A DNA stretch of 8,655 bases from assembly GCA_023250585.1 (NCBI GenBank), contig JAHFAK010000103.1, forward strand, positions 1-8,655, in the 5' to 3' direction. Shown in pieces: positions 6,653 through 8,634 of the stretch. This DNA is from Deltaproteobacteria bacterium. Lineage in GTDB: Bacteria; Bdellovibrionota_F; JAHFAK01. The notes under the pieces are model-generated. The model did not search any database and was not told where the DNA came from. It saw nothing but the letters and a program-made list of their open reading frames with translations. The translations under genes were made by a program, and so were the position numbers. The first letter of the stretch is position 1. Every line of letters begins with the position of its first letter.

Positions 6653-7714
6653 ATGAAGTTATTCATTCCCGGCCCAACTGAAGTTAGCCAAAAGGTCCTC
6701 GAAGCAATGTCTTGCCCAATGATCTACCATCGGAGTCCTGAATTTAAAAATCTTTTTACTGAAATAATCTCTCTTTTACAGCAATTTCTCAAAACAAAAA
6801 ATATGATTTTTCTGTCTACCTCAAGTGCAAGTGGCTTAATGGAAGGGGCTGTGCGTAATTGTATTGAAAAAAGAGCGCTCTTTCTCACTTGTGGAGCCTT
6901 TGGAGAACGATGGAAAGCAATTGCAAGCGCTTGTGGTAAAGAAGTCGAATCTCTCGATTTTGCATGGGGGCAGGGTATTTCCATAGAACAGCTTGAAAAA
7001 GCATTACAGAAAAAGCACTACGAAGCAGTTTTTTTAGTACATAATGAAAGTTCGACCGGAGTCATGAATCGTCTTGAAGCAATTGCAACTTCTTTAAGGC
7101 GATATCCCGAGACACTTTTTATTGTGGATACGGTTAGTAGTGCATTTGGAACAATGATAGACGTCGATTCTCTTGGTATTGATGTGTGTATTACAGGTGT
7201 TCAAAAAGCACTTGCGGTTCCTCCCGGGATGGCTTTGGCAACACTGAGCACAAGAGCTCTCGAGAAAGCAGCTCGCTGTAGTAATAGGGGATATTACTTT
7301 GATTTTATTGAAGCAGAAAAAAATTTTGCAACAGGTTTTACGACAACAACTCCTTCAATATCTCACTGCTTTGCTCTTAAAGAATCGCTTGAGGGAATTT
7401 TAAAGGAAGGCTTTACAAACAGGATACAACGTCATCATGACATGGCCATCTATACACGAAATTGGGCTAAAGAATATTTTGATATTTTTACTGATGAGCA
7501 TTTTTTGAGTCCCACAATTACGTGTATTAAAAATACTCGTGGTATTGATGTAGAAGGAATGAACAAATACCTTCAGTCATGTGGATTTATAATTGCTAAT
7601 GGATATGGAAAAATTAGAGACAAAACATTTCGCATTGGACATATGGGTGAACATACGGTTGATGATGTACGGGAATTACTCGCAGCTATTGAACACTATA
7701 TAAAATTGTGCTGA
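6653..7714 (+). CDS. Class V PLP-dependent aminotransferase (serine-pyruvate / alanine-glyoxylate type)
   Basis: This is a fold-type I pyridoxal-phosphate enzyme that moves an amino group between a small amino acid and a 2-oxo acid in the cytosol. The 353 residues are close to family length. It opens with FIPGPTEV (4-11), typical of the serine-pyruvate, alanine-glyoxylate and aspartate aminotransferase group. STSSASGLMEG (55-65) forms the cofactor phosphate loop, HNESSTGV (130-137) and VDTVSSAFG (158-166; D159 at the pyridine nitrogen) follow, and K185 in TGVQKALAVPPGM (181-193) is the Schiff-base lysine. FRIGHMG (326-332) carries the likely carboxylate-binding R327. No Shine-Dalgarno sequence precedes the ATG; a CATAAT box at 6641-6646 would start transcription about at the ATG. 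The substrate is not decidable. The stop codon touches the next palindrome. Confidence 0.93.
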   Translation: MKLFIPGPTEVSQKVLEAMSCPMIYHRSPEFKNLFTEIISLLQQFLKTKNMIFLSTSSASGLMEGAVRNCIEKRALFLTCGAFGERWKAIASACGKEVESLDFAWGQGISIEQLEKALQKKHYEAVFLVHNESSTGVMNRLEAIATSLRRYPETLFIVDTVSSAFGTMIDVDSLGIDVCITGVQKALAVPPGMALATLSTRALEKAARCSNRGYYFDFIEAEKNFATGFTTTTPSISHCFALKESLEGILKEGFTNRIQRHHDMAIYTRNWAKEYFDIFTDEHFLSPTITCIKNTRGIDVEGMNKYLQSCGFIIANGYGKIRDKTFRIGHMGEHTVDDVRELLAAIEHYIKLC

Positions 7715-7838
7715 TACTAAGTTGCATTCAAACGCTAACTGCGTTGGCTTCGTCGTCGGCTCCTCAACGTACTTATTCCGTACGTTTGCGTCGCCTTCTC
7801 CTTGCCGTCTTGTTATCATTTTGAATGCACCTTAGTAT
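7714..7838. repeat. 125-base nested palindrome joining two genes
   Basis: The outer arms 7714-7732 and 7820-7838 pair over 19 bases with one mismatch (core TGCATTCAAA / TTTGAATGCA). An inner stem AACGTAC (7766-7772) / GTACGTT (7780-7786) with a 7-base loop has exactly the same centre, 7776. The two 33-base stretches between stems do not pair; both are C/T-rich on this strand and GC-richer than the surroundings, with CGTCGTCGG and GCGTCGCC words. The left foot uses the last base of the aminotransferase TGA, and the right foot reaches the amidase start region. The shared centre shows it is one unit. It looks like a REP- or MITE-type element. No transposase is nearby. Confidence 0.85.
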
Positions 7839-7848
7839 GAGAAAAGAC

Positions 7849-8634
7849 ATGAGATACAAGAGAAGAATACTTGTGCCGGTTTTCTTTGTGTTGACTTTTC
7901 CTCTTTTTGCACAAACCGTCCTGCATACCATCGTTATAGATCCAGGCCATGGCGGCAAAGATGTGGGGGCACAATCGAGCGATGGTAAAATATACGAAAA
8001 AGATTTGGCGCTCACCTTTGCGCTGCGATTAAAAAAAAATATTGAAAAACAGCTCAATAAAAAAGTAATTCTCACACGAGATAGAGACATTTTTATTTCC
8101 CTCGAAGATCGTGTGCGCAAAGCAAATAAAGCACATGCAGATCTTTTTTTGAGTATCCATCTAAATGCTGCTCAAAGAAATGGGGCCAAAGGAGTTGAGA
8201 TTTTTTTCTTAAGCGCGGATCCATCGGATAGTGATGCAAAAAAATTAGCCCTTATTGAAAACCGGCACATTTATGATTTTGAGGATAAAAAAAATAATAA
8301 AGAATCACACGATCACGCGTTAGAATTTATTTTACATGACTTGGCTAAAAATGAATATCTATCCCAGAGTAAATATTTTGCGGGGTTGATTGAAAATGAA
8401 CTTAAAAAAAAGATGAGCGCCAAAGATTCTCGACGACTACGGCAAGCTCCATTTTATGTGCTTGCGGGAACTTTTATGCCTTCGATTCTTATTGAACTTG
8501 GCTTTATTACCAACGGAGATGATCTTAAGAAATTGCAGAAAAACAAAGTCATGGATCTCTACGGCAATGCAATCATAGATGCTATAAAATCTTTGGATTA
8601 TTATCTCGTTCAAAAAAAGGTACCAGCTCAGTAA
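7849..8634 (+). CDS. N-acetylmuramoyl-L-alanine amidase, Amidase_3 (AmiC-like)
   Basis: This exported zinc enzyme cuts the bond between N-acetylmuramic acid and L-alanine in peptidoglycan, usually for daughter-cell separation. From the ATG at 7849 it has 261 residues: a basic n-region (RYKRR), a hydrophobic stretch (about 7-20) and a likely cleavage after LFA. The catalytic domain is complete: IDPGHGGKD (30-38; H34), E50 in YEKDLAL, SIHLNA (102-107; H104) and IELGFITN (215-222; E216). Residues about 130-165 contain the ALIEN and HDLAKNE region, which matches the regulatory helix of AmiB/AmiC enzymes that blocks the active site until a LytM-type partner acts. No AMIN, SPOR or LysM domain is present. 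In-frame ATGs at 7825 and 7837 lie within or at the edge of the palindrome; GAGAAAA upstream favours 7849, but 7837 remains possible. The last 21 bases of the window hold no gene. Confidence 0.94.
   Translation: MRYKRRILVPVFFVLTFPLFAQTVLHTIVIDPGHGGKDVGAQSSDGKIYEKDLALTFALRLKKNIEKQLNKKVILTRDRDIFISLEDRVRKANKAHADLFLSIHLNAAQRNGAKGVEIFFLSADPSDSDAKKLALIENRHIYDFEDKKNNKESHDHALEFILHDLAKNEYLSQSKYFAGLIENELKKKMSAKDSRRLRQAPFYVLAGTFMPSILIELGFITNGDDLKKLQKNKVMDLYGNAIIDAIKSLDYYLVQKKVPAQ

Follow-up and report, generated by a model that had tools for sequence, protein, structure and literature searches.

What occupies the junction between an aminotransferase-like and a cell-wall amidase-like gene in a Deltaproteobacteria bacterium (GCA_023250585.1), where a concentric palindrome extends exactly from a stop codon to an ATG? 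The window, that is, the whole stretch of DNA analysed, comprises the 8,655 nucleotides of contig C24 (JAHFAK010000103.1) in a genome assembly of 2.24 Mb and 164 contigs. Both genes, named according to a first-pass annotation of the sequence, lie on the forward strand: the upstream ORF (353 aa) at 6653..7714 and the downstream ORF at 7825..8634. The evidence described below favors, with a probability of about 0.87, a MITE that was moved by a transposase of the IS630 family (DDE_3) and inserted at a TNA target.

An element between a stop codon and a start codon

The palindrome at 7714-7838 consists of a 123-bp element (7715-7837) and one base of a target duplication on each side. The left copy of this 3-bp duplication, TGA (a TNA trinucleotide, 7712..7714), doubles as the stop codon of the aminotransferase, and the right copy, again TGA, is located at 7838..7840. 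The element begins with an 18-bp left terminal inverted repeat (TIR), TACTAAGTTGCATTCAAA (7715..7732, plus strand), followed by a left spacer, CGCTAACTGCGTTGGCTTCGTCGTCGGCTCCTC (7733..7765, plus strand), which belongs to a core kept across phyla, a central stem AACGTAC/GTACGTT with a 7-base loop (7766..7786), a right spacer of the same core (7787..7819, plus strand) and a right TIR (7820..7837, minus strand) with one mismatch to the left one. The outer arms match at 17 of 18 positions when TACTAAGTTGCATTCAAA (7715-7732) is compared with the reverse complement of TACTAAGGTGCATTCAAA (7820-7837), and can also be written TACTAAGTTGCATTCAAA / TTTGAATGCACCTTAGTA. No paper among those searched contained the TIR letters.

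The geometry given in the first-pass annotation, a single centre at 7776 with equal spacers of 33 bases, was borne out, and a chance palindrome was ruled out by dinucleotide shuffles of the window, in which 19-base arms at such spacing never reached 17 matches (0/200; best 16). The interior proved GC-richer than its surroundings, as had been described (52.9% against 36.8% for the window), and the C/T-richness reported on both sides of the centre was found as well (21/33 and 25/33, in stretches counted one base off the true spacers). The assertion that the middle cannot pair holds in that the spacers are not complementary, but not for the short conserved GGC/GCC contacts between them.

The element brings two in-frame ATGs, one within the right arm (7825) and one across its end (7837), the latter composed of the final A of the element and the TG of the duplicated TGA. 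A further ATG (7849) is located beyond the element, where it opens a signal-peptide-like N-terminus, and is present in the empty site as reconstructed (TTGTGC TGA GAAAAGAC ATG); therefore, no start had to come from the insertion, and there is no need to propose that the element supplies the start region of the amidase. The palindrome has its feet on a stop codon and an ATG because the insertion duplicated the TGA that ends the aminotransferase, and the odd gene junction is accounted for by ordinary transposition using a stop codon as target. The empty site is predicted to read ...TGCTGAGAAAAG... with a single TGA, and a related strain with an uninterrupted aminotransferase-amidase junction would carry ...TTGTGCTGAGAAAAGACATG... 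without the element. Elements of this type influence the make-up of intergenic regions and can mislead the calling of gene starts.

Dispersed copies and duplication of a TNA target

In the source genome 43 matches to the 125 bases were found, many of them at 92-97% identity, which rules out an element specific to this junction. Allowing 2 mismatches at most, the core pattern TTCAAACGCTAACTNNGTTGG also occurs at 43 places (control 0). There are about 40 other copies in this genome, contrary to the solitary occurrence that the first-pass annotation named among the grounds against its reading. All scored copies in this genome but one are located between ORFs, often a few bases from a gene end, and the orientations of the flanking genes differ. 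The apparent exception, an old copy (L021:2794-2917), exactly fills the space that separates the stop codons of two convergent genes, one of which takes its stop codon from the element.

The arms start with TAC and end with GTA, and T-N-A stands outside them on both sides. In a set of 62 copies, drawn from the source genome and from others, the left N equals the right N in 43, a value reached by none of 100,000 shuffles (mean 17.3), and 33 of the 62 are flanked by a perfect TNA left and right; in the window N is G and TGA is duplicated. The TNA duplication on both flanks therefore indicates insertion by transposition, although its length is formally 1-3 bp since N is bordered by T and A both in the element and in the target. 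Dispersed copies with TNA duplications, together with the short, non-coding nature of the element (123 bp with 18-bp TIRs), identify it as a MITE, and the same copies and duplications uphold the earlier claim that the element was inserted and has a composition of its own.

The published elements of the IS630 family, including ISY100 and IS630, duplicate TA (PMC2170065), whereas the subgroup to which the window element probably belongs duplicates TNA. A duplication of TA fails to explain the identical N; the empty site of a Sinorhizobium element (see below) rules it out, as does, for L274, the TGA duplication. The 2-bp TA duplication of an IS630-driven, RUP-like element was thus not what was observed here, nor in the related IS630 elements, which also duplicate TNA. 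This duplication marks an IS630 subgroup distinct from the published TA type, and for this subgroup an exact empty site is available. For the window copy no empty site was found among 40 genomes drawn, of which one was of the same class and had no copy at all. A search of joined flanks among the repeats of the source genome gave no clean empty site either; the copy at L022 lies beside a repeat, but this repeat is not continued in its other flank.

IS630-family ends and the alternatives to an IS630 transposase

Three broken contig ends of the source genome (C27, C65 and C155) bear the same TIR with a TNA flank and without the MITE core. In C27 and C65, TCA or TAA is followed by the TIR TACTAAGTTGCATTCA and the start of an ORF, MRIATPISNNQRRSIGKLLSKTKSKADFQRVQCM (also given as MRIATPISNNQRRS...). 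In C155, which carries an 18-mer identical to the left TIR of the window element, a frame encoding a C-terminus that resembles those of IS630 transposases terminates as ...SLIVLENDPQRIHLLTAFKWIINSIHLNAT (also given as ...LENDPQRIHLLTAFKWIINSIHLNAT, followed by the stop), with its stop codon inside the TIR and TCA beyond it. The TIR is thus found at two kinds of IS end, and no complete copy of a partner IS was found in this fragmented assembly. Neither Pfam nor NCBIfam gave a hit for the N-terminal 34 aa, nor did NCBIfam for the C-terminal 30 aa; among named sequences, the C155 piece matched best in tblastn, though weakly (E 0.1), a Polaromonas transposase, parts of which hit DDE_3. The sole DDE_3 hit in the source genome, a fragment (L125), was discarded on checking as the TIR is absent from it.

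Related elements were identified in other genomes. A TIR-bearing locus (L235, genome G240) encodes a DDE_3-like C-terminus, ...LENDHKRTQSIAGFEWIVSIVLKAT, that is 47% identical to the C155 piece and matches DDE_3 partially, with a sub-threshold score; its frame ends 5 nt from a TCA-flanked TACTAAGTTGCTTTCA, and this end has 1 mismatch in 11 to the window-type TIR. A complete DDE_3 element (L226) reads TAA, TACCATTTCGC..., TAA, with 20-bp TIRs that start with TACCATTTCGC and share 17 matches, and contains two overlapping frames with DDE_3. Its closest relatives reside on plasmids and belong to the IS630 family according to NCBI naming. The six plasmid IS630-like elements examined have TIRs starting with TAC and an identical TNA on both sides, and the one on a Polaromonas plasmid starts with TACCACTTTGCATTCAA. 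When the flanks of the Sinorhizobium medicae element are joined with a single TTA, they are identical (300/300, ungapped) to the corresponding site in five other S. medicae plasmids. The joined flanks of the Spartinivicinus element match another IS6 copy over 300 ungapped bases at 88.7%, and those of the Shinella element read through a LacI-type gene, the frame being judged by eye. Ends matching IS630-family (DDE_3) elements were recognized in C155, L235, L240, L226 and the plasmid elements, L235 and L240 being fragments. The window element shares with the insertion sequences of the IS630 family (ISY100 type, Tc1/mariner-like) ends that adjoin DDE_3 transposase coding.

A full-length element with these ends would encode a DDE transposase of the IS630 family that binds the 18-bp terminal repeats, excises or copies the element and inserts it into TNA, duplicating this trinucleotide; in the window the target would have been the TGA stop of the upstream gene, which the insertion leaves intact. 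Judging from the contig ends, the MITE is probably moved by an IS630 enzyme of the source genome itself, the gene for which is visible only as two ends. By analogy, the working principle would be the same as that proposed for the repeat unit of pneumococcus (RUP), namely the trans-mobilisation of short IS630-ended elements. RUP, the mobilisation of which has been attributed to IS630-Spn1, is a non-coding, intergenic sequence of ~107 bp with ~110 copies and TIRs that fold on each other (PMC3049150, PMC2229807). As described, it resembles the window element in being short, non-coding and intergenic and in having TIRs similar to the ends of an IS630-family element of its own host. It differs in inserting at TA-containing targets, whereas the window element duplicates TNA and has longer TIRs and a core common to several phyla. 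The Correia/NEMIS elements of Neisseria are MITEs of 107-155 bp with TA termini, target duplication and size variants produced by internal inserts (PMC2229807); the likeness, drawn from descriptions, extends to all of these features, and the host is a different one. Chunjie, a dispersed MITE of Geobacter uraniireducens with TIRs, intergenic copies and one copy in an operon (PMC10969869), is similar by description only and longer (178-235 bp against 123 bp).

A palindrome that is mostly intergenic could instead be retained because it works as a structured RNA or in regulation (as an attenuator, a terminator or a hairpin for RNA processing) and not be chiefly mobile. The predicted transcript folds far better than shuffled sequences on both strands (z -5.5 and -7.5), both-sided changes preserve the pairing of the outer arms and the central stem (covariation score reached by 0/500 shuffles), and the scored copies of the source genome avoid genes save for the one that fits a convergent stop-to-stop gap. 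The compensated arms are, however, expected where one transposase binds both ends, and the TNA duplications and the IS ends with the same TIR require transposition. In addition, no Rfam family matched the window at the gathering threshold, no promoter- or terminator-like pattern was found, and the gene orientations around the copies vary. A role as RNA is consequently considered improbable as the main explanation, even though compensation in the central stem hints that pairing itself matters.

Mobility through another enzyme that targets TNA, such as a transposase of the IS5 family, is slightly less probable still. IS1031-type IS5 elements duplicate TNA and the source genome has two DDE_Tnp_1 genes; nevertheless, the same TIRs adjoin DDE_3 (IS630) coding ends and the plasmid IS630 elements duplicate TNA too. 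The least credible option, with very little weight, is a palindrome of the REP/BIME type copied by a RAYT (Y1 transposase). The window element is likewise intergenic, palindromic and dispersed, but REPs are described as sequences of 20-40 bp tagged with GTAG or CGTC (PMC3733652). A palindrome of that size, with such a tag and without target duplication, was not found here; the long TIRs, the target duplications and the length of ~123 bp oppose this option. An IS630-mobilised MITE thus accounts best for the locus.

Copies in other phyla and neighboring repeat families

The core pattern was detected in other genome records: a Nitrospinota MAG (many copies), Smithella, several Nitrospirota and several Deltaproteobacteria MAGs. 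A few exact core matches elsewhere, e.g., in Flammeovirga, have no arms and were taken as chance. In Nitrospirota the core is rare (2/148 genomes). Of 395 genomes from the phylum to which Smithella belongs, 30 contain the TIR pattern TACNNAGTNGCATTCA, compared with 5 hits for the reversed pattern used as a control; there it encloses several different cores, most of them TNA-flanked. The MITE family is present in at least three phyla besides its host and represents a new family of a known type. The similarity between the window copy and those of other phyla is up to 85%, and a tree built on 124 columns nests the Nitrospirota and Nitrospinota copies within those of the source genome (support 86/93), which suggests horizontal movement across phyla, within the limits that short sequences and MAG binning set on the tree. 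It is mildly surprising that the core is found across phyla and that TNA serves as the target. It is possible, though doubtful, that a single MITE lineage passed between phyla as a whole, together with its structured core, the core perhaps being kept for transposition by the TNA-duplicating IS630 subgroup or for protection of host transcripts. An autonomous element was sought in Smithella, Nitrospinota and Nitrospirota MAGs, and only MITE copies or unresolved lone ends were obtained.

Several copies contain other palindromes in their centre or spacers (ACAACCCCCTATCCCCC..., TCATTGCCCGGCGCATGCAGGG and CAGCCTGCCCCGGCGCAGGCCGGGG) that look like nested small elements; they occur in Nitrospinota (L056, L065, L070, L088), Smithella (L059, L091) and Deltaproteobacteria (L138, L141, L142). 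The complete genome G073 (L171, L199-L207) harbors many elements with the same TIR around a different, GC-rich core of up to ~260 bp; therefore, several MITE families share one TIR. A second dispersed palindromic family, with ~10 or more copies in the source genome (L013:2698-2850 and L256-L262), starts with CTATACACAACGACATAAATAATTGCG, ends with GGCGTCGTGTATAG and has a central stem GGCGTAY/RTACGCC; one of its copies abuts a window-type element. Another repeat, present in at least three copies (L263-L265), is composed of the palindrome GTCATCCCGCGGCTTGACCGCGGGATCCAGT and an ORF starting with MEKNFFVYILASKKNGTLYVGV, GIY-YIG-like as judged by eye, and at L022 a window-type element adjoins a repeat of this type.
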